The notes under the pieces were generated by a model, which was not told where the DNA came from, did no database searches, and worked only from the letters and a program-made list of their open reading frames with translations. From the NCBI GenBank assembly GCA_002713365.1, contig PASR01000011.1:295875-342109 (forward strand): DNA of 46,235 bases, given 5' to 3'. Source of the DNA: Rhodospirillaceae bacterium. Its GTDB lineage: Bacteria; Pseudomonadota; Alphaproteobacteria; UBA6615. The translations under genes were made by a program, and so were the position numbers. Shown one piece after another: positions 2,486-44,619 of this stretch (positions within the stretch are counted from its first letter, which is position 1; the number at the start of each line of letters is the position of its first letter).

Positions 2486-3990
2486 TGACTAGTAAAATTA
2501 ACCTTCAATATTTAACAATTAAAGAAGCTAACCGAGCTCTGAATGAGGGTGATTATACTTCTCAAGACTTAACGCAGGCACATTTAGAAGCTATGGCAAC
2601 AGAACGAGGTCTAAATTCCTTTGTAACTGAATGTCCAGATAGAGCTCTCGCGATGGCTGAAGAGTCTGACAAAAGACGTTCTAAAGGAGAACAAATAAGT
2701 CCTTTAGACGGAATACCATTAGCAATAAAAGATTTATTTTGCACAGAGGGAATTTTATCAACTGCTGGAAGTCGAATACTAGACGGATTTACCCCAACGT
2801 ATGAATCAACGGTTAGTCATAACTTATGGAGTGCAGGTGCGGTTATATTAGGAAAGACCAATATGGACGAATTTGCAATGGGGTCCGCAAATGTAACAAG
2901 TTATTATGGTAATTGCATTAATCCGTGGAAAGCTTCGTCTGGAAATTTAGTTGGTAAAGATCTTGTTCCAGGAGGCTCTTCGGGAGGTTCGGCTGCCGCT
3001 GTTGCTGCTCGTTTGGCATTAGGTTCTACGGGAACAGATACTGGTGGATCTATTCGTCAGCCAAGTTCATTTTGCGGTGTTGTTGGCTTAAAGCCAACTT
3101 ATGGACGGTGCTCGCGGTGGGGAATTATTGCATTTGCAAGTTCTTTAGACCAAGCGGGACCAATAACTCGAAGTGTAGGAGATGCAGCTTTAATGTTAGC
3201 TGAAATGGCCGGTTTCGATCCTAAGGATTCTACCAGTGCTAATCTTCCTGTACCCAGTTACATAGAATCACTAAACGGAAATATCAAAGGATTACGTATC
3301 GGTATTCCATCGGAATACAAATTAGATTCAATGCCTGATGAGATAGAAGATGTCTGGCAACGGGGCAGGGATTGGTTAATAGATGCAGGTGCAGAGGTTA
3401 TTGATATATCTCTTCCACATACAAAATATGCTTTACCAAGTTACTACATTATTGCCCCTGCATAAGCTTCTTCAAACTTAGCTAGATATGATGGCATTCG
3501 TTATGGTTTGCGAGTAGAGGGCGAGGATCTTATTGATACATATGAAAAAACTCGAGCTGCTGGATTTGGTGATGAGGTAAAGCGCCGTATTATGATTGGT
3601 ACCTACGTTTTATCTGCTGGATACTATGACGCTTATTATCTGCAAGCCCAAAAGGTAAGAACTCAAATTACTAATGATTTTAATTCTGTATGGAAAGAAT
3701 GTGACGCTATCCTTACGCCTACTACGCCCTCAGCAGCCTTTGCTATCGGCGAGAAAATGGAAGACCCTATCGCTATGTATTTGAATGATATTTTTACTGT
3801 ACCAGCATCTATGGCTGGATTGCCGGCTATTTCCGTTCCTGCTGCTATTAACAAAGAGGGGCTTCCCCTTGGACTTCATGTGATAGGTCCAGCATTTACA
3901 GAACAAACGGTATTACGTATTGCAGATGTAATTGAGACAGCAGCTGAATTTACTGCAAATCCTAATGAAAATATTACAATCGCTGGATAG
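2482..3990 (+). CDS. gatA: Amidotransferase subunit A (amidase), interrupted by an in-frame TAA
   Basis: GatA releases ammonia from glutamine for tRNA-dependent amidation. The frame is continuous over 502 codons, normal for the family, except for TAA at 3463-3465 (codon 328). The amidase triad is present before the stop: Lys83 in IPLAIKDLF, Ser166 in PGGSSGGS and Ser190 in [10 protein letters not shown]. After the stop the same frame continues for 174 codons with the conserved C-terminal amidase half, including the [15 protein letters not shown] stretch. Family members usually read [14 protein letters not shown] here, so the TAA stands where GAA (Glu) is expected, a single G-to-T difference. 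There is no frameshift. The first codons are ATGATG, and the first ATG overlaps the gatC stop. Because GatCAB is normally indispensable in alphaproteobacteria, a sequence error, readthrough or a two-piece GatA must be considered. Confidence 0.9.
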
Positions 3991-3992
3991 AT

Positions 3993-5558
3993 GTGAGTTA
4001 CAAAGTCATGACTAATGAAGCCACTCCTGATCATCTTACAGGCCATATAACTACTCGAATCGGTCATAGAAAAGAAAACTTACTGTCTGGTGAGAATGAT
4101 GACTGGGAAATTATTGTGGGTCTTGAGGTGCATGCTCAAGTTTCCTCTGAATCAAAGTTATTCTCGGGTTCATCAACTGAATTTGGCGCTGAGCCCAATA
4201 GTCAGGTGAGCTTGGTAGATGCAGCAATGCCAGGTATGTTACCGGTTATTAATATGGAATGTGTACGTCAAGCAGTTCTTACAGGACTTGGTCTTGGGGC
4301 TAAAATTAATTTACATTCAATTTTTGACAGAAAAAACTATTTTTATCCTGATTTACCGCAGGGTTATCAGATAAGTCAGTTTGCTTATCCTATAGTCGGA
4401 GAAGGTAAAATTAGTGTTAACCTTCCTAATGGAAATAGTTTTGATGTTGGTATAGAGCGTTTACATTTAGAACAAGATGCAGGTAAGTCGATACATGATC
4501 AACACCCAAATAAATCTTATATAGATTTAAATCGATCAGGTGTTGCGCTTATGGAAATTGTTTCAAAACCAGATTTACGATCTGCTGAGGAGGCAGCAGC
4601 TTATTTAGGAAAATTGCGCTCTATTCTTCGCTACTTAGGAACTTGTGATGGAGAAATGTCTAGAGGATCAATGCGTGCAGATGTCAATGTATCAGTTCGA
4701 CATCCGGGAGATGTTCTGGGTACTCGGTGTGAAATTAAAAATGTTAACTCATTGAGGTTTGTTCGACAGGCAATTGATTTTGAAGCACGCAGACAAATTG
4801 AGATTATTGAGGATGGAGGTGTAGTTGATCAAGAAACTAGACTTTTTGACTCAAATAGAGGCGAAACGCGCTCCATGCGTTCAAAAGAAGAAGCTCATGA
4901 TTATAGGTATTTTCCTGATCCGGATTTATTACCTTTAGTTCTTGATCAACCTTTTGTTGATATTTTGAAAGATAGTCTGCCAGAGTTACCAGATGCTAAA
5001 AAAGTACGGTTTATAGACTTTTATGGTTTATCATCAAGCAATGCTGATGTTTTGGTTTCAGAAAAAGAAGTTGCGGACTTTTATGAATCTTTGGTGCTAG
5101 CTGTAATTGAAATGAAGGTCGAAATTGAAAAAGAGGTTGTAGCAACGGATGCAGCAAACTTAGTAATAAATGAATTGTTTGGGTTAATTAACGCTTCCGA
5201 TATAAATATAAATAATTCACCAATCAGCTCATCACAAATCGCTGAATTTCTTAAACTTCGTTATGATGGTGTGATTTCAGGAAGAATTGGAAAAGAGCTT
5301 TTTGTAGATATGTTTCATAGTGGGAAGGATGCAGCTGTAATAGTTGAAGAAAAGGGTCTCAAACAGATTACTGATACTGATGCAATAGAAGGTATTATAG
5401 ATAAACTTATTATAGATAATCCGGATCAAGCAAAACAGTATAGAGAAGGTAATACAAAAGTTGCCGGTTGGTTTACAGGCCAAGCTATGAAGGCAACCAA
5501 AGGTCAAGCTAACCCGCAGGTAGTAAACGATGTTCTGAAAGAAAAGCTAGAAAATTAA
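3993..5558 (+). CDS. gatB: Asp-tRNA(Asn)/Glu-tRNA(Gln) amidotransferase subunit B
   Basis: A 521-residue protein. The phosphorylation/transamidation core begins at [20 protein letters not shown] and includes the [15 protein letters not shown] segment. [27 protein letters not shown] and [10 protein letters not shown] are GatB signatures. The C-terminal tRNA-binding YqeY-like domain ends in [18 protein letters not shown]. The likely start is GTG at 3993, two bases after gatA, but an ATG at 4008 would also fit because the first 40 residues are not conserved. GatB activates the acid on the tRNA with ATP, then uses ammonia from GatA. It ends 14 bp from the convergent SDR gene. Confidence 0.96.
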
Positions 5559-5572
5559 AATTATTTAACTTA

Positions 5573-6370
5573 TCAAGTTTCTGCTATTTCTTTCCATAAT
5601 TCATCCGCCACTAGTGTACCCCCATCTACGGGAAGCACCGCCCCCGTGACATAGGCTCCTGCACGAGATGAAAGATAGATCACTGCTCCCACCATGTCTT
5701 CTGGGGTTCCGATCCGACCTCTAGGAAGGTTTTCTTCAATATTTTTTTGATGATTATTTAAGGTATATTGCATCATCTTACTTTCAAAGGGACCTGGTGC
5801 AATAGCATTTACAGAGATATTTCGTTTTCCTAAGTGATGGGCCATCACACGTGTTAGATGGTGCACAGCAGCTTTACTAGCTGGGTATGAATAAGTTTCT
5901 AGTTTGGGTATTGCTAGGCCATCTACGGAACCAATATTTATGATACGAGCTGGATCTTCTTCGGTTGCAGCTGCTTGAAGTGGCGTCAATAGAGCCTGAC
6001 TGAGGAAGAAAAGTGATTTAGCGTTTAAATCCATTACCTTATCCCAACCTATTTCAGGGACGTCTCCAATTTTTGCTCCCCAGGCGGCTCCTGCATTATT
6101 AACTAGAATATGAAGTTTAGGTTCACGAGATATAATTTCATCTGCTAGACGTTTTACCTCATTTGATTCTGATAAATCAGCCGGTATAGCTATGCATTCG
6201 CCGAAAGATGACAATTCTTCAGCAACTGCATTGCATGCATTATCAGACCTAGAAGAGATATAAGTTTTAACTCCGTTTTCGACTAGTCCACGGGCAATCA
6301 TAAGGCCAATTCCTCTTGAACCTCCGGTAACAAGCGCAACTTTTCCTGAAACTGAAAACAAATTTTTCAC
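5573..6370 (-). CDS. Short-chain dehydrogenase/reductase (classical SDR)
   Basis: A 265-residue NAD(P)-dependent oxidoreductase. The cofactor loop GGSRGIG is near residues 16-22, LVNNAGAAWG is the NNAG motif, and SYPASK supplies the catalytic Tyr and Lys. The C-terminal segment AYVTGAVLPVDGG is typical of the FabG/gluconate-dehydrogenase-like branch. The substrate cannot be read from the sequence. It lies 30 bp downstream of the PPOX-type gene on the same strand, so the two are probably co-transcribed. Confidence 0.88.
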   Translation of the reverse strand: MKNLFSVSGKVALVTGGSRGIGLMIARGLVENGVKTYISSRSDNACNAVAEELSSFGECIAIPADLSESNEVKRLADEIISREPKLHILVNNAGAAWGAKIGDVPEIGWDKVMDLNAKSLFFLSQALLTPLQAAATEEDPARIINIGSVDGLAIPKLETYSYPASKAAVHHLTRVMAHHLGKRNISVNAIAPGPFESKMMQYTLNNHQKNIEENLPRGRIGTPEDMVGAVIYLSSRAGAYVTGAVLPVDGGTLVADELWKEIAET

Positions 6371-6400
6371 TAAGTGTACTCTTTCATTGATATAATAATT

Positions 6401-7045
6401 CTAGTAAATGGTATCTTTTATTCTTTTTGGGTATGCTTTGTCATAATCATCTCCGTTTATTTTGCCCTTAGTAATAGCTTCAAGAATATTTCCAGTTGTG
6501 GGGAGTTTTTCTCTTGTAACAATACTTTCTGTATCCCAAAGTTTTGAACGAACTAAAGCTTTGGGACACTGATAATATATACTGCCAAGAGAAACTATTA
6601 TTACGCTGGTTGGGTTTTTGTTTTGTAAAGCGAATGTACTACAAAGTTCTGGGTTAGTAGATATTTTTGCTGTACCGTTTATGCGAATAGTTTCACCTAT
6701 ACCTGGGATTAAAAATAATAATGAAATCCTTTTATCACGAACAATATTGCGCAAGCTATCCACACGGTTATTGCCCCGTCTATCAGGAATTATTACTGTA
6801 TGGTTATCTGCGACACGCACGAATCCCGCTGGATCTCCGCGGGGAGAGCAGTCAAGTCCCTCAGGGCCTACCGTTGCGATAATTACAAATGGGGCTGCCT
6901 CAATGAACGCTCTATAATGATCTGAAATATATGATATTTCTTTTTTGATGGCTCCTTCAGGAGACTGTCCGTATACCTTTTCAAGCATATCTATAGAAGT
7001 AATTATATCTTCATTATTTATTTTTGATTTAGAGAAAGAAGTCAT
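6401..7045 (-). CDS. Pyridoxamine 5'-phosphate oxidase-related FMN protein
   Basis: A 214-residue single-domain split-barrel protein. The stretch FVIIATVGPEGLDCSPRGDP, then PDRRGNNRVDSLRNI and ETIRINGTAKIS, match the PPOX-like group usually named the MSMEG_1061/DR2398 type, not genuine PdxH. These proteins bind FMN or a related flavin, and their substrates are mostly unknown. It is upstream of, and probably co-transcribed with, the SDR at 5573-6370, suggesting a two-enzyme redox unit by inference. It starts at ATG 7045-7043. Confidence 0.8.
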   Translation of the reverse strand: MTSFSKSKINNEDIITSIDMLEKVYGQSPEGAIKKEISYISDHYRAFIEAAPFVIIATVGPEGLDCSPRGDPAGFVRVADNHTVIIPDRRGNNRVDSLRNIVRDKRISLLFLIPGIGETIRINGTAKISTNPELCSTFALQNKNPTSVIIVSLGSIYYQCPKALVRSKLWDTESIVTREKLPTTGNILEAITKGKINGDDYDKAYPKRIKDTIY

Positions 7046-7344
7046 ATTAATAATTCCGATGTATGAAATATTTACTGATTATTACTCGGGTTATTTTAAT
7101 GAAAGTCAACGCTTGTATTATATATACTATAGTAAAAATGGAATGTATAAAATCTTCGCTTATATATCACTAAAATTTTGGTCTATATTAGAATAAATTT
7201 ACTCATACTTTGTTTACTATATAAATTCTGAATCGGGTTGTTTTGTAAAATATGTTTGATTTTACCCATAATGAATTAATTTTCTAATAGTGAGCTTAAT
7301 ACTCTTTGATTACCAGAGAAATATAACGGGGAAAGTTAGAAACC
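7046..7344. other. AT-rich intergenic region between divergent genes
   Basis: About 300 bp between the PPOX-like gene (leftward) and the deaminase gene (rightward). It should hold both promoters. No purine riboswitch core, tRNA or strong terminator was recognised. A 45-codon rightward frame from about 7060 lacks a ribosome binding site and family features and is not called a gene. Confidence 0.5.
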
Positions 7345-7815
7345 ATGTGCGACAATACTTTTATGCGTATGGCTATAACTCTTGCCACTAATAACGTAAC
7401 GAGTGGCAATGGAGGACCGTTCGGGGCAGTTATCACGCGTGAGGGGGTGGTGATAGGAGAAGGAACCAATCAAGTAACTTCCTTCGGTGATCCAACTGCT
7501 CATGCAGAGATACTTGCTATTCGAGCAGCTTGTAAAAATATTGGGAGTCATATTTTAGATGGATGTATTATTTATACAAGCTGTGAACCTTGCCCAATGT
7601 GTTTAAGTGCCATTTATTGGGCTAGGATAAAATTTATTTATTTTGGCAACAGAAAGTCTGATGCGGCGGCAATTGGATTTGATGACGCCCATATTTATCA
7701 ACAGATAGCTCTGCCAGAAGGTCAACGATCAATTCCAACAAATCAAATGCTTTCAGAAGAGGCAATTATTAGCTTTCAAAAGTGGACACAGTCTGAATTT
7801 AAAATTGAATATTAA
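7345..7815 (+). CDS. guaD: Nucleoside/guanine deaminase (CDA superfamily)
   Basis: A 156-residue zinc deaminase. The zinc ligands and proton shuttle are in PTAHAEILAIRAAC (HAE) and SCEPCPMCLSAIYWA (PCxxC). The MAITLATNNVTSGNGGPFGAV N-terminus and the length resemble the small Bacillus-type guanine deaminase that converts guanine to xanthine and ammonia, rather than TadA (no TadA-type C-terminal region is seen). It is followed after 50 bp by a complete purine-nucleoside-type importer on the same strand, so uptake and deamination of purines is a coherent reading. The symbol is assigned by similarity; a related base or nucleoside specificity is possible. Confidence 0.8.
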   Translation: MCDNTFMRMAITLATNNVTSGNGGPFGAVITREGVVIGEGTNQVTSFGDPTAHAEILAIRAACKNIGSHILDGCIIYTSCEPCPMCLSAIYWARIKFIYFGNRKSDAAAIGFDDAHIYQQIALPEGQRSIPTNQMLSEEAIISFQKWTQSEFKIEY

Positions 7816-7865
7816 TTCATATGGTTTTATTAGAAATACACTCGCCGTAGAGTACAAAAGATTAT

Positions 7866-9419
7866 ATGTTACCTATCATGTCTAAAACCCCAATGCTTCA
7901 ACTTTTCGGTGTTACAAAACGTTATCCTGGTGTGATAGCGAATAACAATGTTGACCTCAAAATTATGCCTGGCGAGATTCATGCCTTATTAGGTGAAAAT
8001 GGGGCTGGGAAAAGTACTCTAGTTAAATATATTTATGGAGTTCAGAAAGCAGATTCTGGAACTCTTGAATGGTGTGGAAAGCAGACAAAAATCAATAATC
8101 CTAAAATGGCTCGTAAACTGGGTATAGGAATGGTCTTTCAACACTTCTCTTTGTTTGATGCCTTAACTGTAAAAGAAAATATTTCACTTGGTATATCCTC
8201 AAAAATAGCTAACTCTGATTTGGATAAGGAGATAATCAATATATCTAAAAAGTATGGACTTCCGCTTGATCCAGATCGTTATGTTCATACGCTTTCTGTT
8301 GGAGAACGACAAAGAATAGAGGTGGTGCGTTGCCTTCTTCAAGATCCAAGTATGTTGATTATGGATGAACCTACATCTGTCCTAACTCCACAAGAAGTTG
8401 AGTTGCTATTCAGAACCTTACGACAGTTATCAGCTGATGGTGTATCGATACTTTATATAAGTCATAAATTGCAGGAGATTAAAGATCTATGCCATACGGC
8501 TACGATTATGCGAATGGGAGAGGTTGTTGCGACTTGTAATCCAGATCATGAAACGCCTTATAGTATGGCTGAGATGATGATGGGTAAAAATATAAGCACA
8601 CCAAACCGTGTTGAAGACTCAATTAATAAAAGTCCTGCTCTGATTATAAGTGATTTGAGTATACAGTCTGAAAAATCATATGGAACTGACCTAAAAAATA
8701 TAAATTTTACAGTTAATACAGGAGAAGTATTAGGTATTGCTGGAATAGCAGGTAATGGACAAAAGGAACTGATGGCCGCCTTAAGCGGAGAAGTTCTGGC
8801 GGAAAGACCCGATTCTATAAAGATTGCAAATGAGCCCGTTGGTTTATTTTACCCTAACCAAAGACGTCATGCAGGTATGGTTTTCGTACCTGAAGAAAGA
8901 CTTGGGCATGCAGCCGTTCCTATGATGTCATTATGGGAAAATGCATTTTTATCTGGTGCGACTAAAATGAATTTTAAAAAAAATGGGTTTATTAGAGTCG
9001 CGGATGTAAAGGACTATACACACGATATAATAAAGAAGTTTGGAGTAAAGACTCCTAATATTCAAAATATCGCCTCAAGCTTATCTGGTGGTAATCTACA
9101 AAAATTTATTTTTGGTAGAGAGATATTACAAAACCCTAGAATTATAGTTGCCATTCAACCTACCTGGGGCGTTGATGCTGGTTCAGCAGCTGCAATTCGT
9201 CAGTCGCTGATTGATTTAGCCTCAAAAGGTTGTGCAGTGCTTGTTATTTCTCAGGATTTAGAAGAATTATTCGAGATCTCAGACCGTTTATCTGTAATTT
9301 ACGATGGCAAATTATCACCTTCTATAAATACCAAAAGTATTTCACTTAAACAATTGGGTCTGATGATGGGGGGGGTCTCGGTCTTTTCGGAGAAGGGCGC
9401 TATAGAGAATGTTAGTTAG
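7866..9419 (+). CDS. BMP-family nucleoside ABC importer, double ATPase
   Basis: A 517-residue protein with two ABC ATPase domains in tandem, as in NupA/YufO and RbsA. Domain 1 has Walker A GENGAGKST, signature LSVGERQR and Walker B LLIMDEPTS. Domain 2 has a degenerate Walker A (GIAGNGQKE), signature LSGGNLQK and an altered Walker B region (IIVAIQPTWG), typical for the weak second site of this family. It powers the two permeases encoded directly downstream. The start could be ATG 7866 or ATG 7878. Its last codons contain an eight-G run (9368-9375), and its stop overlaps the next start by 11 bases. Confidence 0.92.
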   Translation: MLPIMSKTPMLQLFGVTKRYPGVIANNNVDLKIMPGEIHALLGENGAGKSTLVKYIYGVQKADSGTLEWCGKQTKINNPKMARKLGIGMVFQHFSLFDALTVKENISLGISSKIANSDLDKEIINISKKYGLPLDPDRYVHTLSVGERQRIEVVRCLLQDPSMLIMDEPTSVLTPQEVELLFRTLRQLSADGVSILYISHKLQEIKDLCHTATIMRMGEVVATCNPDHETPYSMAEMMMGKNISTPNRVEDSINKSPALIISDLSIQSEKSYGTDLKNINFTVNTGEVLGIAGIAGNGQKELMAALSGEVLAERPDSIKIANEPVGLFYPNQRRHAGMVFVPEERLGHAAVPMMSLWENAFLSGATKMNFKKNGFIRVADVKDYTHDIIKKFGVKTPNIQNIASSLSGGNLQKFIFGREILQNPRIIVAIQPTWGVDAGSAAAIRQSLIDLASKGCAVLVISQDLEELFEISDRLSVIYDGKLSPSINTKSISLKQLGLMMGGVSVFSEKGAIENVS

Positions 9420-10485
9420 TTTAGAGCTTAGACCTAAAGCTTCTAAGGCGATGGTTTATCAGTCGCCCCTAATAGCAGTTTTTATGACATTAATAACAAG
9501 TATGGTAATGTTTTGGCTAATGGATACAGATCCATTTTTAGCTATTAATGCTTATTTTATTGAACCGGTTTCTACATTAGATGGCGTGGCAGAATTATTG
9601 GTTAAAGCTACTCCTCTTATCTTGATAGCATTAGGTTTATCTGTAGGTTTTCAGGCCAATATTTGGAATATAGGTGCAGAAGGCCAACTGACTCTAGGGG
9701 CAATATTTAGTGGAGGAATAGCACTAGCATATTTTGATGTTGATACGCCATTTCTTCTGCCGGCTATGCTAGTCTTTGGAGTGCTAGGTGGTATGTTTTG
9801 GGCAGCTATTCCTGCTATTTTAAAGGTTCGATATAATACTAATGAAATTCTTACGAGTCTTATGCTTACCTACGTTGGATTGTTATTACTCAGTTATCTG
9901 ATTCATGGTCCTCTTAGAGACCCAGATGGTTTTAACTTTCCTGAGTCCAGATTATTCCATGACTCTGCATTATTACCCATAATTATTGAGGGCTCACGCC
10001 TACATATTGGATTTTTGCTCACGTTATTTATAGCAGTTTTAACCTGGATGCTCCTTATTAAGCATATTATTGGTTTTCAAATACGCGTAATAGGTATGGC
10101 ACCTGCGGCAGCTCGCTTCGCAGGTTTTAAACAAAAGAAACTCATATGGATTACACTACTTTTTAGCGGAGGTGCAGCCGGCCTTGCTGGAGCATTTGAA
10201 GTTTCTGGGCCAATTGGACAGATTGTACCCGTAATTTCCCCTGGTTATGGCTTTACGGCTATAATAGTCGCATTTCTAGGGCGACTTCACCCCCTCGGTG
10301 TGGTGCTCGCAGGTATCTTAATGGCTTTAACTTACCTAGGTGGTGATGCAGCACAGATAACAATGAATCTTCCAAATGCAGTTACTGGAGTTTTTCAGGG
10401 AATGCTATTGTTTTTTTTATTAGCTAGTGATGTGCTCATTCGATATCGCTTTAAAATTGGATCAATAAAAAAGGAGACAACTTAG
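9409..10485 (+). CDS. ABC transporter permease, BMP nucleoside importer
   Basis: A 358-residue inner-membrane protein with about ten hydrophobic segments. NIWNIGAEGQLTLGAIF and RYNTNEILTSLMLTYVG are signatures of the NupB/YufP branch of the BPD_transp_2 permeases. It overlaps the ATPase gene and is followed two bases later by the second permease, so the two form the heterodimeric channel. An 11-base overlap with the upstream gene indicates translational coupling. Confidence 0.92.
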   Translation: MLVSLELRPKASKAMVYQSPLIAVFMTLITSMVMFWLMDTDPFLAINAYFIEPVSTLDGVAELLVKATPLILIALGLSVGFQANIWNIGAEGQLTLGAIFSGGIALAYFDVDTPFLLPAMLVFGVLGGMFWAAIPAILKVRYNTNEILTSLMLTYVGLLLLSYLIHGPLRDPDGFNFPESRLFHDSALLPIIIEGSRLHIGFLLTLFIAVLTWMLLIKHIIGFQIRVIGMAPAAARFAGFKQKKLIWITLLFSGGAAGLAGAFEVSGPIGQIVPVISPGYGFTAIIVAFLGRLHPLGVVLAGILMALTYLGGDAAQITMNLPNAVTGVFQGMLLFFLLASDVLIRYRFKIGSIKKETT

Positions 10486-10486
10486 T

Positions 10487-28178: not shown

Positions 28179-29219
28179 TTGCGTCTAATGCAAACCATGG
28201 CAGGATCAAAAATGGGCGGAGCAGAAGCTTTTTTTGTTCGTTTAGCCATTGCTTTAAATTCATCAAATATTACTCAGAAATTAGTTATTAGAAAAAATGC
28301 TAATAGGTCTCAGGTTCTAAATCAGGCAGGAATAAATTCTGTTCAACTAGGATTTGGGGGACAGTTTGATTTGCAAACCAGGATTTCTCTCAAACGAGAA
28401 ATTTCCAGCTTTCGTCCTAATGTTATTTTGAGTTGGATGAGTCGTGCGGCCAGGATGACTCCTCGATGTCCAGAGCTTTATACGCATATTGGTCGTCTAG
28501 GAGGGTATTACGATTTAAAATACTTTAAAAATTGTGACTATTTAATAGGAAATACTCAAGATATCGTTGATTATATAATTCAAGAAGGATTTGATAGTAA
28601 CCGCGTAATTCATTTACCTAATTTTGTGGATCCTCCCAGTAATCCGCCTATATCAAGATTGGATTTAGATACGCCACTAGATGAAACTCTTTTATTGGCT
28701 ATGGGTAGGCTTCATAAAAACAAGGCATTTGATATTTTAATAGAATCCCTATCTATGGTCCCTAAAACATGGTTATGGATTGCTGGAGATGGTCCTGAGG
28801 CAAAAAGCCTTAGAGAACTAGCAAATAAATTTGGCGTTGAAGACCGAATAAGGTTTCTTGGTTGGAAAGATAATACTGATTCTCTGATGGCTAGTGCTGA
28901 TTTATTTATTTGCCCGTCACGTCATGAGCCTCTAGGTAACGTTGTACTTGAGGCTTGGGCAGCAAAAAAACCTGTTATTGCAACAGCTGCTAAAGGTCCA
29001 GCAGAGTTATTAGGTAATAATGATAATGGTTTATTAGTACCAATTGATTGTCCAGATAAATTAGCTATGGCTATAAATGATTTGATAAATAACCCAGCAA
29101 AGGCATCAAATTTAGCTGAAGCAGGATATGAGGCATATGATAAGAAATTTACTAAAGATATTGTAACTGCCCAGTACATATCATTTTTTGAGAAAGTAAA
29201 AAGAGAATGTGTGGCATAG
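28179..29219 (+). CDS. Glycosyltransferase family 4
   Basis: A 346-residue retaining GT-B enzyme. The C-terminal half has LLAMGRLHKNKAFDILI, WIAGDGPEAKSLRELA, and the EPLGNVVLE acid pair that binds the sugar nucleotide. The N-terminal GSKMGGAEAFFVRLA is the acceptor-side glycine loop. The frame starts with TTG 28179; ATG 28188 is equally plausible. It sits between the GT9-GT2 fusion (six-base gap) and asnB (13-base overlap), a translationally coupled envelope-glycan operon. The sugar donor is unknown. Confidence 0.88.
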   Translation: MRLMQTMAGSKMGGAEAFFVRLAIALNSSNITQKLVIRKNANRSQVLNQAGINSVQLGFGGQFDLQTRISLKREISSFRPNVILSWMSRAARMTPRCPELYTHIGRLGGYYDLKYFKNCDYLIGNTQDIVDYIIQEGFDSNRVIHLPNFVDPPSNPPISRLDLDTPLDETLLLAMGRLHKNKAFDILIESLSMVPKTWLWIAGDGPEAKSLRELANKFGVEDRIRFLGWKDNTDSLMASADLFICPSRHEPLGNVVLEAWAAKKPVIATAAKGPAELLGNNDNGLLVPIDCPDKLAMAINDLINNPAKASNLAEAGYEAYDKKFTKDIVTAQYISFFEKVKRECVA

Positions 29220-36013: not shown

Positions 36014-36054
36014 GAGTCCTCCTTTATGCGATTTAAATACTTACAAGTGTTAGA

Positions 36055-36072
36055 ACCCACCATGTGGTAGGT
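36055..36072 (-). promoter_or_regulatory. Imperfect palindrome in the leader of the 79-aa gene
   Basis: ACCCACCATGTGGTAGGT is an 18-base palindrome with one mismatched pair. It lies between the predicted promoter and the ribosome site, where a repressor could block elongation or initiation. A hairpin in the mRNA leader is the alternative. Confidence 0.45.
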
Positions 36073-36078
36073 GCAAGC

Positions 36079-36110
36079 AGTATATCCACAAAATATGCTG
36101 ATACTGTCAA
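36079..36110 (-). promoter_or_regulatory. Predicted sigma70-type promoter of the 79-aa gene
   Basis: On the minus strand there is a perfect -35 box TTGACA (36110-36105) and a candidate -10 TATACT (36084-36079). The spacing is 20, or 18 if the overlapping GATATA is used. Start prediction from sequence alone is uncertain, but the -35 match is exact. Confidence 0.5.
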
Positions 36111-36530
36111 GCACTAATCAAGCTGATAAATATTTTAATAATTAATATTTAATTTTATTACATGGTATTTACTTAACAAAAATAGCATTTAAAACTCTAG
36201 TACTTACATTTATAGTATTTATTACTTACATAAATATTTTAATATTGATATTAACTACATAAATATAGAATTAGTATATACTGGAATTTATTTTTATGTA
36301 TTTAAAGTAATAAAGTATTGTAATATTATGTAAATTAGTTGGAAAAGTAGTGAACTTATAGATCAACATTTATTAGGCTTTTACCCTATAAATTTAGACA
36401 AAATTTGCAGGTGATTCGGTTTTTTAAACATTTTTCTTATAGTTTTAATATTTTAAATGTCTTGTTAATTGATATCTGGGCTTGGTCTATAACGTTCTAA
36501 ACAGTATCTTATGATAAATATTAGTATACT
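36111..36530. other. Very AT-rich intergenic region
   Basis: About 420 bp between the 79-aa gene promoter and the flavin reductase gene. It is mostly A and T, with short recurring ACATAAATAT-like strings, and shows no open frame of note, RNA gene or clear hairpin terminator. It should hold the promoter of the flavin reductase gene. Confidence 0.5.
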
Positions 36531-36566
36531 TTGAATATATTTACGGGAATTTTGGGAATTGTCCGC

Positions 36567-37061
36567 ATGATAGAACAGGGATTTGATAAGCGTCTATTTC
36601 GAAACGCCTTAGGTAACTTCGCTACTGGTGTTACAGTTATTACTGCTAAAGCTACGGATGGAACGTTAGCTGGTGTAACTGCAAACTCATTTAGCTCTGT
36701 TTCGCTTGATCCTCCATTAGTTTTATGGAGTCTGGATTGTAGTTCGCCCAGCTTAAGAGTTTTTGAAGAGACCAGTCATTTTTGTGTTCATGTCCTTACG
36801 GATGTTCAAAAAGATTTATGTATGAAATTCGCTACTTCTGGGGATGATAAATTTGAAGGTGTGGAATTTCGGGATGGTCTGGGAGGAGCGCCTATATTCG
36901 ATAATTGTTTGGCTAAATTTGAGTGTAGCAATTTAGTGCGTTATGAAGGTGGAGATCATATTATAATTATTGGTGAAGTTAAGCGTTTTGATACAGGTGA
37001 AGGTAACCCACTCATTTTTTACCGAGGAGATCTTGGATATACTTTGCTATCTAATGGCTAG
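36567..37061 (+). CDS. Flavin reductase-like FMN-binding protein
   Basis: A protein of about 164 residues of the flavin reductase domain family. LFRNALGNFATGVTVITA, GVTANSFSSVSLDPPLVLWS and HFCVHVLTDVQKDL are typical of the NAD(P)H:flavin oxidoreductase subunits of two-component monooxygenases. The frame is open from TTG 36531, but ATG 36567 is chosen because conserved sequence starts there and no ribosome site precedes the TTG; GGGA lies about ten bases before the ATG. No partner oxygenase gene is adjacent. Confidence 0.87.
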   Translation: MIEQGFDKRLFRNALGNFATGVTVITAKATDGTLAGVTANSFSSVSLDPPLVLWSLDCSSPSLRVFEETSHFCVHVLTDVQKDLCMKFATSGDDKFEGVEFRDGLGGAPIFDNCLAKFECSNLVRYEGGDHIIIIGEVKRFDTGEGNPLIFYRGDLGYTLLSNG

Positions 37062-37203
37062 GTAATAAGTCAATATTATTACTTAATGCCTTAAAATATT
37101 TTCATATAGCTTATCATATAACTAAAATATAACATTATCTTACTTATAAGGTTCTTTTAATCTGAGTTATGTTAGTAGTGTTGTTTGGAAGAGGAATAAA
37201 TTA

Positions 37204-38703
37204 ATGAAATCGTATGTAAACTGGATAAACGGAGAGCACACTGTAGGAAGTTCTAAGCGATTAGGAAAAGTATTCAATCCTGCTATTGGTGAGCAGATAG
37301 CTAATATATTATTATCTAATTCAACAGATGTAGATTCTGCTGTAATGGCTGCTAAGAAGGCTTTACCGGCTTGGTCAGCATTGTCGCCGATACGTCGTGC
37401 CCGGATTATGTTTAAATATAATGAACTTCTTCTAAAACATACAGATGAGCTATCAGAATTAATTTCCATTGAACATGGAAAAACTATCGAAGATGCCAAA
37501 GGTGATGTTACACGAGGACGTGAAGTTGTAGAGTTTGCTTGCGGTATTCCTCATTTACTTAGAGGTGATTTTACAGAAGAAGTAGGCACTGGGATAGATG
37601 CATATTCTATACGTCAGCCTGTTGGGGTGTGTGCTGGAATTACACCGTTTAATTTTCCCGCAATGATACCTTTATGGATGTTTCCATTAGCAATTACCTG
37701 CGGTAATACATTTATTCTCAAACCATCTGAACGAGACCCTTCGTGTCCTCTTCGTTTAGTGGAATTAGCTAAAGAAGCGGGGGTGCCAGATGGGGTGGTT
37801 AATGTGGTTAATGGCGATAAAGAAGCAGTTGATGCTATTTTGCATCATCCAGATATATCTGCAGTTTCTTTTGTAGGTTCAACACCTGTGGCGTCTTATA
37901 TTTATTCCACAGCTGCAGAGAGTGGTAAGAGAGTGCAGGCACTTGGGGGAGCTAAAAACCATATGGTTGTCATGCCAGATGCAGATATGGATCAGGCTGC
38001 AGAGGCCTTGATGGGAGCTGGTTATGGTTCTGCTGGACAGCGTTGTATGGCAGTTTCTGTGGCAGTGGCCGTAGGAAAAAATACAGCCGATGAATTGATT
38101 AAGAATTTGGTTCCTCGTATTCAAGAGTTAAAAATAGGACCTGGCACAGATTCGGATATAGAAATGGGACCTGTGGTTACCGAACAGTCTTATAACCGTG
38201 TAAAGGAACTTATTGATAAAGGTGTAGATGAAGGTGCAGAGCTTATAGTTGATGGTCGTGATTTCACCATGCAAGGTTATGAAAATGGCTATTTTCTGGG
38301 AGGTACTTTATTTGATAATGTTACTGAAGACATGGAGATATATAAACAAGAAATATTTGGACCCGTCTTATCAGTAGTTCGTTCTCCAGACTATGAAACT
38401 GCTGTTGATTTGGTTAATCGTAATGAGTATGGCAATGGAACTGCGATTTTTACAAAGGATGGTGACGCTGCACGTGATTTTAGCGAAAGAGTTCAAATAG
38501 GTATGGTAGGGGTTAACGTTCCTATTCCTGTACCTGTAGCATACCATAGCTTCGGTGGGTGGAAACGTTCTTTATTCGGAGATACACATATGCATGGTAT
38601 GGAAGGCGTCAGGTTTTATACAAGATTAAAGGCCATAACATCGCGCTGGCCAAAGTCAGGGGTAAGAGAAGGTCACAGTCTAAATATGCCAACTATGGAG
38701 TGA
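37204..38703 (+). CDS. mmsA: CoA-acylating methylmalonate-semialdehyde dehydrogenase
   Basis: A 499-residue aldehyde dehydrogenase. The nucleophile Cys is in GSAGQRCMAVSVAVAVG, and AGITPFNFPAMIPLWMFP and SFGGWKRSLFGD are MmsA signatures that separate it from ordinary ALDHs. The enzyme turns (methyl)malonate semialdehyde into propionyl- or acetyl-CoA in valine, inositol, thymine or beta-alanine breakdown. No pathway neighbours (mmsB, iol genes) are adjacent, so its route is open. A GAGGAA site lies upstream of the ATG. Confidence 0.93.
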   Translation: MKSYVNWINGEHTVGSSKRLGKVFNPAIGEQIANILLSNSTDVDSAVMAAKKALPAWSALSPIRRARIMFKYNELLLKHTDELSELISIEHGKTIEDAKGDVTRGREVVEFACGIPHLLRGDFTEEVGTGIDAYSIRQPVGVCAGITPFNFPAMIPLWMFPLAITCGNTFILKPSERDPSCPLRLVELAKEAGVPDGVVNVVNGDKEAVDAILHHPDISAVSFVGSTPVASYIYSTAAESGKRVQALGGAKNHMVVMPDADMDQAAEALMGAGYGSAGQRCMAVSVAVAVGKNTADELIKNLVPRIQELKIGPGTDSDIEMGPVVTEQSYNRVKELIDKGVDEGAELIVDGRDFTMQGYENGYFLGGTLFDNVTEDMEIYKQEIFGPVLSVVRSPDYETAVDLVNRNEYGNGTAIFTKDGDAARDFSERVQIGMVGVNVPIPVPVAYHSFGGWKRSLFGDTHMHGMEGVRFYTRLKAITSRWPKSGVREGHSLNMPTME

Positions 38704-38905
38704 CCCATTAATAGTATTAATAATTACTAATAATGGTTAAAATACCTTGTAGTATTAAAGCATGAATGTTTGATGTTATTTAGATAGAATTTCGAATTCC
38801 CGATAAGAGATGCTCTGATATCAGCTGATGATACATGTGATAGTTCAGTATCGGTTTGCCATGTGCAAAGAAAGATAATGAGTTAATTGGTGCTAAATAA
38901 ACTTT

Positions 38906-39988
38906 CTAATGAATAAGATTTATTTTAGAGAATGTTGTAATAGTAATTAGGCTGATTAATCCTACGACCGTTGCAGCAGTGAAACCAACAATAAATGGTT
39001 TGTATCCCATATCCTTCAATTCTTTTATATTGATTGATAGCCCTAACGCTGCCATGGCAATGCTAAGGAATATTCCAGAAAAATCTTTAATTAGAGCTAT
39101 GGTTTGTTTCCAAGTACTAGCGTCTATAAAAAGTTTTTGAGCAGAGAATATTTCGTCACCGATTGTACGTATAATAACCATTAATAAAAACCCAATTACG
39201 AATAATGGAAATATCCCTTTTATCGAGTGTTTTCCAACACTTTGTTCCCTATTATAGAAATAAGCAAAAAGAGGAATCATTACTAATAGAAATGTGTTCC
39301 TTACAAGTTTTGTTATTGTTGATATTTCAAGTACTTTAGTGTTGCTGAATTGTTGTTCATAAATTAACCCTGAAGCTATTACCTGTGCTGTATCGTGTAT
39401 GGCTGTTCCTAGAAAAAGCCCTATATAACTCTCTTCTCCATTAAATATAGAGTTGGCTAAGTAAGGGTAGAACAGCATTCCAAACATACCAAAAATTGTT
39501 ATGTTAGCTATTGCGTAAGTTATTTCTCCTTTCTTTGCGTTTATTACAGGAGCCATAGCTACAATTGCACTAACACCGCAGATAGATGTCCCTATAGCTA
39601 TTAAATAAGACATTTCAGTCGAAATTTTAAGGTATTTTACGGTGAAACGCACAGCTAATAAAACTGTTATTATACATATAATAATCAGAGGAATTGAGAC
39701 TGATCCGTATGTAAAAACCTCTGTGAGGCCAATTCTAATTCCTAATAAAATAATTCCAAGCCGTAAAATAATTTTTAAAGAGAAGTTTATACCCTTAGTA
39801 AAGATTTCACCTATTTTAATGAAATTACCAACTACAATACCTATTAATATTGCAAATAATACTGTTGATATCGGGCTTTTTTCATAAAAGAGGATTTCCT
39901 TCCCTACAAAGTTGCTCAATAAATCAGCCAATAGGTAAATCAGAGTAGATAATAATATCCCCGGTAATAATGCGTAAATTCTAGGCAA
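38906..39988 (-). CDS. yeiH: YeiH/UPF0324 family putative sulfate/sulfite exporter
   Basis: A 360-residue inner-membrane protein with about ten hydrophobic segments. GTSICGVSAIVAMAPVI and FLGTAIHDTAQVIASGLIY are the two family signatures. Members are annotated as sulfate exporters and are often linked to sulfonate/sulfite metabolism; direct transport evidence is limited. The start is TTG at 39988, with GGGA about eleven bases before it. It is the last gene of the leftward unit that begins with arsR. Confidence 0.85.
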   Translation of the reverse strand: MPRIYALLPGILLSTLIYLLADLLSNFVGKEILFYEKSPISTVLFAILIGIVVGNFIKIGEIFTKGINFSLKIILRLGIILLGIRIGLTEVFTYGSVSIPLIIICIITVLLAVRFTVKYLKISTEMSYLIAIGTSICGVSAIVAMAPVINAKKGEITYAIANITIFGMFGMLFYPYLANSIFNGEESYIGLFLGTAIHDTAQVIASGLIYEQQFSNTKVLEISTITKLVRNTFLLVMIPLFAYFYNREQSVGKHSIKGIFPLFVIGFLLMVIIRTIGDEIFSAQKLFIDASTWKQTIALIKDFSGIFLSIAMAALGLSINIKELKDMGYKPFIVGFTAATVVGLISLITITTFSKINLIH

Positions 39989-40102
39989 CTTAGGTTTAAT
40001 CCCTTTTTATATGATTGGGTTATATTTTGTAGACGTTTTGCAATTGGTAATTATTTTTTGTTCATTTTTTAATAGTTTTTTTAATTCATATCTAACTATT
40101 TA

Positions 40103-40573
40103 TTATACCAGTTTATCGATGTAATCGTCTTCAATATCACCAGGTACAATTGTTACCGGTATGCGAAGTTTTCCCATAAGCTTTTTTGTGAAATACATAA
40201 TTAGAGGTCCGGGACCCCGCTTATTAGTTGATGCAGCCAGTACCAAAGAACTTATTTGATTGTCTTCATTTATTAATTTTACTAAAGCTGATTTCGTATC
40301 GCCTTCTTTAATATATAATATTGGCATTTCACCTTTAGTTAACTCGCTAACGGTTGCTGCATGTTCTTGTAGCAGTTGTTCTGCCTGTTCACGGGCCTCC
40401 TCTCTCATTAAATGTCCAATAGCTGCCCAATGCTGGAAGTCTCCTTTGCGCACTACGCGCAGAAGGCCAACGCGGCCTCTTGTTCGCAAAGCTCGGATAC
40501 TTGCATATTTGAGGGCAACTCGCATTTCTGTCGTGTTATCTACCACAACGAGAAAAACATTTGGTTCAATCAT
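40103..40573 (-). CDS. Universal stress protein (UspA family)
   Basis: A 156-residue single-domain protein. NVFLVVVDNTTEMRVALKYA opens the Rossmann-like fold, and the nucleotide loop near the end reads GKLRIPVTIVPGDIED; the canonical GxxGxxxxxxxxGS loop is only partly kept (LAASTNKRGPGPLIMYFTKK). This form is common in alphaproteobacteria. It lies between the TIGR02186 gene and yeiH on the same strand, suggesting a stress-linked role in the sulfur unit. Confidence 0.85.
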   Translation of the reverse strand: MIEPNVFLVVVDNTTEMRVALKYASIRALRTRGRVGLLRVVRKGDFQHWAAIGHLMREEAREQAEQLLQEHAATVSELTKGEMPILYIKEGDTKSALVKLINEDNQISSLVLAASTNKRGPGPLIMYFTKKLMGKLRIPVTIVPGDIEDDYIDKLV

Positions 40574-40630
40574 GTTTTTTTTTAACCTTTCACAAATAAT
40601 TATAAATGTCTATTTTGTACTTACCCTTGG

Positions 40631-41419
40631 TTATACGTTTCTAAAAACAACACCAGCAAACCATCCGGCAGCTAATGCAATTAAGATAGCAACAATGCCG
40701 TATAATGAAGGGTGCTGATTTGCAAAATCAAATACATTAGACTCAAACCCTGTTTTTCGAACCTGAAGCGGGGTATCGGTTCTTTCAATAATTTTTCCAT
40801 TAGAAATCAGATATGTAGTTGCTATATAATCTCCTGTTGGAACATTAGATGGCAGATTTACTTTAGTACGAAATAATCTATTATTTTGAAATTCAACTTT
40901 ATTAAATTTATAGTTAAATAGACCGACCTTTTCTTTGTTTCGTATTAAAGCTTTTGTAAAATCAGAGATCTGGTATTCTGACACAGACTTAAATGGTTTC
41001 ATAGACAAGTATCTGGCACCGATCTGTTCTTTCTTTAGCGTTGTTTCAGGTAACAGATCTGTAATGGGCTGTGTGGCAGCTAAGTAATAGAAGCCAGGCA
41101 CGTTTTTAAAAATAACTCTGTCTGAATTAATCCAGATACCCCCTGTTCGTTTTTTTCGGCGGACAACTACTTGGCTTTCTGGCGCACGAACGACGACGAT
41201 TATGTCACCAATACCGTTTGTGGATCCAAATAACAAAACTTCTGCGCCAGTGAATCTAGTTGTAATAGCTATTAAGTCTTTACTTAGATCAGCGACTAGT
41301 AATGGCGTGTTTGTTATAGCTGGAATAGAAGTTTTATGATGAGTATCAGCGTTTACATAATTTTCAGCTAAGAAAGCTGTGGCCAACAATATAATGAGTG
41401 AATAGATTATTATTCTCAT
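40631..41419 (-). CDS. TIGR02186 family membrane-anchored protein
   Basis: A 262-residue protein. Residues 1-24 are a signal peptide, and a C-terminal helix (about 239-257) anchors it, leaving most of it in the periplasm. LVADLSKDLIAITTRFTGAEVLLFG and VVVRAPESQVVVRRKKR are typical of TIGR02186, a family found beside TSUP permeases in alphaproteobacteria. Its start overlaps the TSUP stop by four bases (ATGA), implying joint expression and a partner role in export. The molecular function is unknown. Confidence 0.85.
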   Translation of the reverse strand: MRIIIYSLIILLATAFLAENYVNADTHHKTSIPAITNTPLLVADLSKDLIAITTRFTGAEVLLFGSTNGIGDIIVVVRAPESQVVVRRKKRTGGIWINSDRVIFKNVPGFYYLAATQPITDLLPETTLKKEQIGARYLSMKPFKSVSEYQISDFTKALIRNKEKVGLFNYKFNKVEFQNNRLFRTKVNLPSNVPTGDYIATTYLISNGKIIERTDTPLQVRKTGFESNVFDFANQHPSLYGIVAILIALAAGWFAGVVFRNV

Positions 41420-42342
41420 CCACCAAATCCTGAAATTTCACTGATTGAAAATAGGTCAAATGGTGTTGATATAAGGTCGTAGGCGATTTTACTACATACT
41501 AAAAGTACCATCAATGCTAAAAGGCCACGCAATTGCTCGCCACGAAGTTTTACTGCTACTCGCGTACCAAACTGAGCTCCAACCACGGCACTAGTTAATA
41601 GAAGCAGAGCTAATACAACATCTACTGTTTGGTTGGATGTTGCTTGCAGAAATGTGACGTTTGCAGTTACAAATATTATTTGAAATAGGGATGTTCCCAC
41701 AACCATTGCGGTAGGCATACCCAGTAGATAAATCATGGCAGGTACCATTATAAATCCCCCGCCCACTCCCATTATAGCAGCTAATATTCCTACAAAAAAA
41801 CCAATACCTATAGGTAAAAGAGCACTTATGTATAAGCGCGAACGTCTGAAGCGCATTTTGAAGGGCAAACCATGCAGCCAAATATGTTGATGCAATTTTC
41901 CTCGGGTTGCGGTTCCCGCTTGGCGTCGTAATATAGTTCTGCTGCTTTCAAACAGCATCAAAGAGCCGATCGCTCCTAGTAAAATAACGTAACTCAGAGA
42001 TATAAGAAGATCCACTTGTCCTAATTGACGTAATAGTGTGAATATTACTACTCCTACGCTAGACCCTACGAATCCACCGGCAGTTAATACTAGGCCCATT
42101 TTTATATCAACATTGCCGCGCCTCATATGAGCCCAAGCTCCAGAAACAGACGCGGCCAATATCTGGTTGGCTTCACTGGCTACAGCTACGGCTGGAGGAA
42201 TACCAATAAATATTAATAATGGGGTCATCAAAAAACCGCCACCGACACCAAACAAACCCGATAAAAAACCTATAGCGCCGCCCAACCCAAGGATCAGGAA
42301 TACGTCCACCGACATTTCGGCGATCGGTAGATAAATATTCAT
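41416..42342 (-). CDS. TSUP (TauE/SafE) family sulfite/sulfonate exporter
   Basis: A 308-residue membrane protein with about eight helices and two internal repeats: GLFGVGGGFLMTPLLIFIGI near the start and AIMGVGGGFIMVPAMIYLLG in the second half. The family exports sulfite, sulfoacetate or related organosulfur anions. It is coupled to the TIGR02186 gene by overlap and follows rhodanese after about 40 bp. Confidence 0.9.
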   Translation of the reverse strand: MNIYLPIAEMSVDVFLILGLGGAIGFLSGLFGVGGGFLMTPLLIFIGIPPAVAVASEANQILAASVSGAWAHMRRGNVDIKMGLVLTAGGFVGSSVGVVIFTLLRQLGQVDLLISLSYVILLGAIGSLMLFESSRTILRRQAGTATRGKLHQHIWLHGLPFKMRFRRSRLYISALLPIGIGFFVGILAAIMGVGGGFIMVPAMIYLLGMPTAMVVGTSLFQIIFVTANVTFLQATSNQTVDVVLALLLLTSAVVGAQFGTRVAVKLRGEQLRGLLALMVLLVCSKIAYDLISTPFDLFSISEISGFGG

Positions 42343-42383
42343 CTAGTAGCTAAATTTTGATTGCAAAATAATTATTATGAGAG

Positions 42384-42719
42384 TCAAGTTTCTGTGCCTA
42401 TCTCTGCAGGTAGCCCTGCAGCAACCCAAGCTTGAAGTCCACCTGCCATGCGATATATTTTATCTTTATAGCCGGCGGTTATTAGTTGTTCAGATGCTAA
42501 ACCGCATCTCAGGCCACTACGGCAATGTAGAACTAATAGTTTGTTATTTGGTGGTAATACATCGCTAGGATTAAACATAGATAATGCCATTAGAGAAACT
42601 CCAGATATATGTACTTGTGCATATTCTTTTGGCTCACGCACATCAATAACATATGCTAAATTTTTATCCATTAGTTCCTGAACTTCTATTGGTTCCAGAA
42701 AACTTACTTGATTTATCAT
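42384..42719 (-). CDS. Single-domain rhodanese-like sulfurtransferase
   Basis: A 111-residue protein with one rhodanese domain. The active-site loop is VLHCRSGLRCGLA, with the catalytic Cys carrying the persulfide, and DVREPKEYAQVHISGV is the family N-terminal motif. It would transfer sulfane sulfur to thiols or to sulfite. It lies 104 bp from arsR and ahead of the TSUP exporter. Confidence 0.93.
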   Translation of the reverse strand: MINQVSFLEPIEVQELMDKNLAYVIDVREPKEYAQVHISGVSLMALSMFNPSDVLPPNNKLLVLHCRSGLRCGLASEQLITAGYKDKIYRMAGGLQAWVAAGLPAEIGTET

Positions 42720-42823
42720 AATAATAGAGCCTCTAATTTAAGCAATTATTTTTGAATTAGTTTATCTTAGTATTTCAATTTTCCCGTGCCTTATGGATTA
42801 TTATTGAATATTTTATTTTTATA

Positions 42824-43135
42824 TCAGGAAGATGGTTGAACGCCAGGACAATAAATTTTGCAAAGTGCGCCTAAGATACTAATAGTTGCATCACAAGAAA
42901 TTGAATAATACATTTTTTTAGATGCTCTAAGAGTTTGGATTAACTTGTCTCTTCTAAATTCCGCCAAATGTTGGGATAATCTTGATTGGCTGAGTTTAAG
43001 TATTGGTTTCATTCCGCTAACTGATTTTTTACCTTTGTGTAAATTTCTATAAATCAAAAGTCGTTGCTCATTACCTAGAGACCTCAATAATGTGGATACT
43101 TTACCTGTACTAGATTCTAGAGCTGTTATATTCAT
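42824..43135 (-). CDS. ArsR-family transcriptional regulator (BigR/SqrR-like)
   Basis: A 103-residue winged-helix repressor. LRSLGNEQRLLIYRNL leads to the recognition helix LSQSRLSQHLAEFRRDKLIQ and the wing MYYSI. In persulfide sensors of the BigR/SqrR type a Cys in the segment GECSV pairs with one near the C-terminus. Here the first reads GKKSV (no Cys), while Cys92 and Cys96 (ALCKIYCPG) and Cys81 are present, so sensing by that pair is altered. It heads the leftward sulfur unit and is divergent from tusA. Confidence 0.87.
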   Translation of the reverse strand: MNITALESSTGKVSTLLRSLGNEQRLLIYRNLHKGKKSVSGMKPILKLSQSRLSQHLAEFRRDKLIQTLRASKKMYYSISCDATISILGALCKIYCPGVQPSS

Positions 43136-43157
43136 ATAATTAGTATATTAATATATG
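43133..43157. promoter_or_regulatory. Candidate ArsR operator in the arsR-tusA control region
   Basis: The palindrome TATATTAATATA (43144-43155) is perfect and lies 9 bases upstream of the arsR start; CATATA and TATATG flank it as a wider repeat. AT-rich inverted repeats at the promoter are typical ArsR-family sites. AT richness makes chance palindromes likely, so this is only a candidate. Confidence 0.35.
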
Positions 43158-43256
43158 TGAAAAATGATTAATGAAGATTGCCAGTAATAAGATCTTAACA
43201 AAATAGTATATCTATATAAACAAATTTACTAATAAAAACTGCGTACAGGTTTAATT

Positions 43257-43484
43257 ATGAATGTACTAGACACATCGGGACTTAGATGTCCCCTACCTGT
43301 TTTAAAAGCTAAGAAAGCATTAAAGCTACTTTCTGCAGGTGAAAAACTTAAAATTATTGCCACTGATCCAGGGGCTATAAAAGATTTTCATCATTTTTGT
43401 GAAGTCACTGGAGATCTCTTAGAAAAAGTCAGTAATAATGATGGAACTATAACTTTTATTATAAGTAAATGCAGCCAGAACTAA
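43257..43484 (+). CDS. tusA: TusA-family sulfur carrier protein
   Basis: A 75-residue protein. LDTSGLRCPLPVLKAKKAL carries the CPxP motif, with the Cys (residue 10) that binds sulfane sulfur, and the fold continues to the conserved FHHFCEVTGD. TusA proteins shuttle persulfide sulfur to tRNA thiolation, molybdopterin or oxidation routes. It shares a control region with arsR and is followed after 25 bp by the MtnA-like gene, so the two are probably one transcript. Confidence 0.92.
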   Translation: MNVLDTSGLRCPLPVLKAKKALKLLSAGEKLKIIATDPGAIKDFHHFCEVTGDLLEKVSNNDGTITFIISKCSQN

Positions 43485-43509
43485 CTTACAGCTAATATAT
43501 AGAAATAAG

Positions 43510-44619
43510 TTGAAAATAGATCATATTAATTATCGCACCATTTGGTGTTCTGAAGATGGCTGGTCAATAAATATTATTGACCAGGATAGTTTACCAGGAG
43601 ATTTTAAAGTTATTAATTTGTCTAGCGTGCAACAGGTCATTGGTGCAATTAAAACTAAGATTGGTAAAGGGCGTTCAGTTAATATGGTCATGGCGATGTA
43701 TGGCATGGCTCTAGCTATGAAAAAAGATTCATCCGATGAATCCATTAGATCTACTGCGAAAGCCTTAATTAGTAATTATTCTGGTATTGAATATATAAAA
43801 AATATAGTAAGCGAATTATCTATGATGATAGCTTCCGTTCCGCCTGATGCCCGTCAATCTTTGGCATATAAAAAGGCCAAAGAAATGGCTGATTTAGATG
43901 TCGAGATTAATAATAAAATTGGAGATAATGGACTAAGTTTAATAATTAATGCCCATAAGAATATTAGACAAAACCGTTCGATTAACCTACTTACCCATGG
44001 AAATGCCGGATGGCTAACCACGGTGTATTGGGGAACAGCTCTTTCAACGATTTTTAAGTCTCATGGTTTTGGCATACCAATTAATGTGTGGGTAACAGAA
44101 ACGATAAAAGGGGAACGGGAATGTGCTTTAACTTGCTGGGAATTAGAACAGCAAGGTATATCTCACGAGATAATTGACGACAGAGCATAAGCTTATATGA
44201 TGCAGAATGGATTAGTAGATATGTGCATGATTAGCGCAGATCTTATGTCTGCTGAAGGGGATGTTATAAATAACGTAGGCACTTATGTAAAAGCGCTGGC
44301 AGCGAAAGATAATAATATTCCATTTTATATTGCGTTACCTTCTTCGTCTATTGATTGGAAGTTACACGCTAATTTATCTGTAGAAAATACAACAGAAAGA
44401 GATAAACCCGATCGGTTAGGAATTAAGCATCATATAAAAAATAGTGCAAATCAGAGTAATATAATAACTGCAGATTTACTAACAGATAATTTTTATAGCG
44501 AAGTAACGCCTTCTGGTTTAATTACTGGCCTAATAACTGAAAAGGGTTATACCTCAGCTAGTGCTCACGGTCTGGCAGCTTTGTTTCCTAACCTAGCGCC
44601 ATTTGTAAGCCTTGGTTAG
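43510..44619 (+). pseudogene. Divergent MtnA-like (methylthioribose-1-phosphate isomerase family), in-frame TAA
   Basis: The frame covers 369 codons, the usual MtnA length, broken only by TAA at 44188-44190; ATG 44197 restarts in the same frame. It starts with TTG 43510. Family sequence is recognisable throughout: NYRTIWCSEDGWSINIID, MYGMALAMKKDSSD, LTHGNAGWLTTVYWGTAL, CWELEQQGI, GDVINNVGTYVKALAAKDN and FYIALPSSSIDW. Key residues are changed. The substrate loop (usually VRGAP) reads GKGRS, the catalytic Cys of THCNAG is Gly, and the DETRPRNQGA loop reads TETIKGERECA. The catalytic Asp of the D-R motif is kept (SADLM), but its Arg is not. So it can hardly be an active isomerase. It is either a decaying gene or a repurposed paralogue; the absence of frameshifts favours a late interruption. 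Confidence 0.75.

Follow-up and report, generated by a model that had tools for sequence, protein, structure and literature searches.

The DNA analysed here (hereafter the window; 46,235 nucleotides, C9:295875-342109) belongs to a draft genome of a Rhodospirillaceae bacterium of 2.52 Mb in 19 contigs, and it holds a gatA gene and an mtnA-like gene that are each broken by a single in-frame TAA stop (Table 1). A preliminary description had reported that both stops lie in the same phase within one and the same 10-mer, GCATAAGCTT, that recognisable homology carries on in frame past the stop in both genes, and that an intact form, GCAGAAGCTT, stands unaltered in a glycosyltransferase (GT4) gene of the same stretch. 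All of this was confirmed: the window contains exactly two copies of GCATAAGCTT, both on the forward strand, and both frames, read through, resemble their families beyond the stop. Dinucleotide shuffles of the window gave an expectation of 0.20 copies of the 10-mer, with two or more copies in 2 of 100 shuffles.

Table 1. Interrupted genes, shared 10-mer sites and blocks of single Ns in the draft genome (coordinates without a contig name are those of the window)
Feature	Position	Strand	Stop	Remarks
gatA frame, single interruption at codon 328	2482..3990	+	TAA	Read through with X: TIGR00132 559.9 bits, cut-off 481.1
GCATAAGCTT in gatA	3460..3469	+	TAA, 3463-3465	gatA codon 328; relatives Glu 29/29
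GCAGAAGCTT, intact, in frame	28221..28230	+		Glycosyltransferase (GT4) gene, C9:324095, 348-codon open frame
mtnA-like frame, single interruption at codon 227	43510..44619	+	TAA	TIGR00512 212.8 bits, below cut-off 279
GCATAAGCTT in mtnA-like gene	44185..44194	+	TAA, 44188-44190	mtnA-like codon 227; relatives Gly 28/29, Ser 1/29
topA	C9:291266		TGA	TIGR01051 794.3 bits, cut-off 456.4
EamA-type permease	C9:420391		TGA	Weak profile match; homologue in same-genus genome G002 spans stop
livH-type permease	C6:160912		TGA	11 relatives, 68-88% identity
M24 peptidase	C12:87487		TAG	Six relatives, 86-98% identity
Nnr-type enzyme	C5:46246		TGA	PDB homologues
Glutaryl-CoA dehydrogenase	C10:39222		TGA	PDB homologues
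Short-chain dehydrogenase	C10:104102		TGA	PDB homologues
N blocks	C9:137-182 kb, C6:1-148 kb, C12:154-187 kb, parts of C5 and C10			

Read through, the gatA frame passes the curated cut-off for GatA, and the TAA at codon 328 is its one departure from an uninterrupted frame. Matches to the gene were found in all 60 genomes compared, and 30 loci were returned including its own; in the 29 relatives examined this codon specifies glutamate (GAA or GAG), in agreement with the GAA codon that had been expected at the site, and a tblastn search found an internal stop in none of the 29 loci. A family-wide stop in gatA was considered and discarded, since the TGA, TAG and TAA codons listed for several relatives sit at the end of the gene, outside the alignment. 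Among the matches listed, the draft genome has one near-identical gatA, the other listed rows being amidases of 32-34% identity. No asnS was found in the genome (best match 104.1 bits, cut-off 342.6), and glnS is present (732.8 bits). Without asnS, the formation of Asn-tRNA should depend on GatCAB. Because asnS is absent and glutamate is present in all relatives examined, gatA looks indispensable, and it looks to be needed in the living lineage.

The product of the mtnA-like gene is similar over its full length to MtnA (S-methyl-5-thioribose-1-phosphate isomerase), at ~37-45% identity to eight aligned relatives; identity to relatives does not exceed 45%, and none of 24 genomes of the order gave a higher value. 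It differs from MtnA in scoring below the family cut-off and in lacking VRGAPLIG, THCNAG, ETRPRNQGA and GTDRT, motifs that are conserved in the eight aligned relatives. THCNAG, present in 8/8 of these, is replaced by THGNAG, with loss of the cysteine that we take to be catalytic. With identity so low and the conserved motifs lost, the Gly or Ser of the relatives is no guide to the former codon 227. The gene may be a paralogue that has acquired another function, or it may be a pseudogene. It has a single match in the draft genome and was not found in two genomes of the same genus. PADLOC returned nothing. One relative (genome G012, locus L024) also carries an in-frame TAA in its mtnA match, at codon 25, near the start and opposite a glutamine of the protein described here.

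We scanned 1.40 of the 2.52 Mb of the draft genome (56%; C9 1-440 kb, C6 1-400 kb, C12 1-260 kb, the whole of C5 and C10 1-140 kb), looking for in-frame stops flanked on both sides by a coding signal, and judged the candidates by eye. Nine single-stop interruptions were accepted (six TGA, two TAA and one TAG), or ~6-7 per Mb, a number that is an estimate, as not all candidates rejected by eye as ordinary gene boundaries (e.g., PhoH/YbeY, C6:383513) were checked by homology and a TGA at C6:191456 stayed outside the count, neither accepted nor rejected. Seven of the nine lie outside the GCATAAGCTT context, in unrelated genes, one of which is topA, with one match in the genome. In G002, a comparison genome of the same genus, no single-stop interruption was recognised in 884 kb, by the same by-eye judgement and a coding-filtered homology screen; at the rate of the draft genome ~6 would be expected there (P 0.0025 with the rate taken as known, 0.010 conditionally). 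This filtered screen returned six rows for the draft genome, three of which were accepted (gatA, topA and the EamA-type permease), and none in the reverse direction. The remaining rows (C9:262293, C9:376044 and C9:82048) looked antisense by eye, each with TGA opposite Cys, and were dropped. An unfiltered version covering 3046 stops had been swamped by antisense frames and was rerun with the coding filter; many further stop rows in the comparison of the two genomes were likewise read as antisense. A stop at C9:388618, 14 codons short of the end of one homologue, was left uncounted, as were frameshift rows against G002 (seven one way and three the other), which fall in genes for repeat proteins or in one probable tandem paralogue.

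The residues replaced by these stops point to one dominant type of substitution. Besides the glutamate of gatA, relatives have Gly at the stop of topA (14/23, including the 11 most similar), of the livH-type permease (11/11) and of the glutaryl-CoA dehydrogenase (the human enzyme, both rows shown), and Trp at that of the M24 peptidase (6/7, the seventh being a 36% paralogue); the short-chain dehydrogenase and the mtnA-like gene, with no inferable former residue, were left out. With the EamA-type permease and the Nnr-type enzyme included, a single G>T change would produce the stop in six of the seven inferable cases, and a single G>A change in the seventh, the Trp codon of the M24 peptidase. 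Codon usage predicts a G>T share of 22% among random nonsense changes, and the excess has a P of 0.0006 (0.002 without Nnr, 0.009 without Nnr and topA). Missense changes of the same type accompany the stops: in topA, Arg82 is replaced by Leu (CTA) within DPDREGEA, which we take to belong to the catalytic region, at a position where Arg is invariant in the relatives aligned (23 rows, columns at least 80% present). Over gatA, topA, the M24 peptidase and the livH-type permease, G:C>T:A makes up 6/12 of the one-step deviations at invariant columns in the draft genome and 21/137 in the relatives (P 0.009). Among the six are Arg82>Leu of topA and two stops by which genes had been selected. Since missense accompanies nonsense in this way, recoding of stop codons would not predict the pattern. 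In small numbers, the changes have the marks of an artefact: a single type of substitution yields both missense and nonsense changes, unsieved by selection.

The assembly itself seems to carry traces of more than one near-identical sequence. C12:186994-260000 and C9:1-73008 form an overlap of at least 73 kb that is 99.87% identical, the differences being 93 mismatches, of which three are N, and a single gap. At coding sites of this overlap, G:C in C12 faces T:A in C9 at 11 positions, ten of them non-synonymous and including a Gly>Trp change where G002 has Gly, and the reverse occurs at six, three of them non-synonymous. When the ten sites were compared with G002, C12 matched it at three, C9 at one and neither at five, with no reference at one. 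On the plus strand of the overlap, G/T mismatches number 17 and C/A mismatches 3 (P 0.003); no clear motif was seen by eye around the G/T differences. The overlap does not reach the gatA and mtnA-like sites. Isolated single Ns occur in blocks (Table 1) at ~1.4-1.6 per kb, a density near the divergence of the overlap, with none between the blocks and none in the sampled parts of G002. These blocks look like disagreements between merged near-identical sequences that were written as N. The window has no N and may therefore rest on one source, and none of the nine interruptions falls inside an N block, which is compatible with chance (P 0.15-0.20).

From the assembled sequence we predict, with a probability of roughly 0.8, that the stops are consensus errors, mostly G>T, in a single draft genome merged from near-identical sequences. 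The two TAA codons would then be isolated point changes in that consensus, belonging to the same background of gene-breaking changes, which on the coding strand are mainly G>T, as the other interruptions, and they would be neither carried by a living population nor signs of recoding. The likeliest origin would be template damage or thin coverage passed into the consensus; oxidised guanine, which gives rise to G>T artefacts in sequencing data according to the part of the literature consulted (PMC6337315), would fit the bias. As in the cases treated in that part of the source, G>T dominates among the changes and they look unselected, striking required genes; the artefacts described there are rare variants in reads, whereas here the changes stand in the consensus. 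As artefacts, they would be a warning that a draft genome rated 100% complete may contain false gene breaks at several per Mb, which can mimic pseudogenes or recoding and are betrayed by a single dominant substitution type.

Several observations weigh against consensus error. The former residue is weakly determined in three genes: in topA, where the two same-genus genomes carry Asn and Thr; in the EamA-type permease, where Gly comes from a single relative; and in Nnr, where one of the two homologues shown has Gly and the other Lys. TGA at Gly is also more frequent than G>T alone would predict (5/6 of the G>T cases, P 0.010; 4/5 without Nnr, P 0.029). The differences in the C9/C12 overlap (47 synonymous, 34 non-synonymous, 12 intergenic and no nonsense) are mostly strain-like variation. 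The two TAA sites, moreover, share seven flanking bases, which for that single pair has a chance of ~2e-4; GAA codons with these flanks number 0 among 13,080 (counted in long open reading frames (ORFs), with the first 30 codons omitted) where 2.4 would be expected (P 0.09); and in-frame GCA-(G/T)AA-GCT-T in long frames of the sampled draft genome has TAA in 2/3 instances.

The last three of these points would favour a systematic error that depends on the context preceding AAGCTT, which we regard as very unlikely. Seven interruptions stand in other contexts, and the site in the GT4 gene is unaltered. G002 shows a similar distribution of the base before AAGCTT (GAAGCTT 198 and TAAGCTT 219 in 1.33 Mb of the draft genome, 162 and 181 in 0.88 Mb of G002), with no depletion of GAAGCTT seen relative to the latter. 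The 10-mer is not over-used in the genome (9 copies vs 6 of its reversed control), and long open frames on both sides occur only at the gatA and mtnA-like copies, the next-best copy having 53 open codons before it and 36 after. The preliminary description finds support in offering an error as one explanation and not in tying it to this context; the preference for the 10-mer that it proposed to look for in interrupted genes amounts to 2/9, both already named, in the part of the genome scanned. Its statement that a seven-base match is unlikely by chance holds for the pair alone, as two random codons share the three upstream and four downstream bases with a probability of 1.6e-4 (all codons) or 2.0e-4 (GAA codons), and softens to 0.6-0.7% once such a match is allowed anywhere among the 36 pairs of nine interruptions. 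Coincidence, which it had also offered, is most likely the explanation of the shared flank, with the scarcity of GAA codons and the 2/3 TAA sites left as a residue of doubt.

It had further proposed context-dependent readthrough of GCA-UAA-GCU-U, yielding full-length GatA and MtnA-like protein. The in-frame homology of both genes past the stop would agree with this; the stop, however, is kept in 0/29 of the gatA loci examined, the mtnA-like protein appears to lack its catalytic motifs, topA and other genes are interrupted outside this context, and the missense change in topA is of the same type, and we consider readthrough exceedingly improbable.

An equally slight chance attaches to an incipient change of UGA from stop to glycine, in which the two UAA cases would be a separate matter. 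Gly is the residue indicated for each of the five TGA interruptions where one can be inferred (weakly for Nnr and topA), and in-frame TGA where relatives have Gly recalls the UGA = glycine code of Absconditabacteria and Gracilibacteria as described in the portion of the source consulted (PMC8629427). The draft genome differs from the code described there in that the sites are few, UAA and UAG interruptions occur as well, UGA still terminates, RF2 is present and no tRNA-UCA was found; the same portion of the source counts the presence of RF2 and the lack of tRNA-UCA in favour of UGA = stop. No stop-reading tRNA and no UCA anticodon was seen among 42 tRNA hits, a set that is incomplete (no Ile-GAT seen) and in which one tRNA (C16:1-71) was read by eye. 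RF2 is complete (506.9 bits, cut-off 370), and TGA ends 141/874 (16%) of the ORFs of at least 250 codons vs 68/307 in G002. Reassignment would also leave Arg82>Leu in topA unexplained. A broader early reassignment, in which in-frame stops in gatA and topA would be tolerated through inefficient termination or ambiguous decoding while all three stops stay in use, some UGA codons being decoded as Gly and ribosomes reading through UAA in GCA-UAA-GCU-U, is hardly more credible; if true, it would mean a bacterium in transition between genetic codes.

Less improbable than any of these, though still unlikely, is that the stops are real: the mtnA-like gene would be a genuine pseudogene, and for the others the assembly would have captured rare deleterious variants carried by single cells or strains. 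The loss of its motifs and its apparent absence from the two same-genus genomes mean that the mtnA-like gene may indeed be a real pseudogene, the TAA in the mtnA match of G012 points the same way, and strain variants are present in the C9/C12 overlap. Against this, gatA without asnS and the sole topA match could not be lost in a living lineage (an argument that draws partly on pathway knowledge), frameshifts, which decay would be expected to produce, appear only in the repeat or tandem-paralogue rows, and the mtnA-like frame has stayed otherwise open across 370 codons despite its divergence. Consensus error remains for us the better account of the nine interruptions.

Two further observations were made on contig C9. 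At C9:206378-211616, long genes for repetitive proteins contain internal repeats that are ~85-90% identical in DNA and whose register differs in the G002 homologues. For both gatA and topA (C9:288977-291616), similarity to other genera of the family (up to 76% and 79-80%, respectively) exceeds that to the two genomes of the same genus (72% and 66%), which can be read either as transfer of the region or as a doubtful genus assignment.

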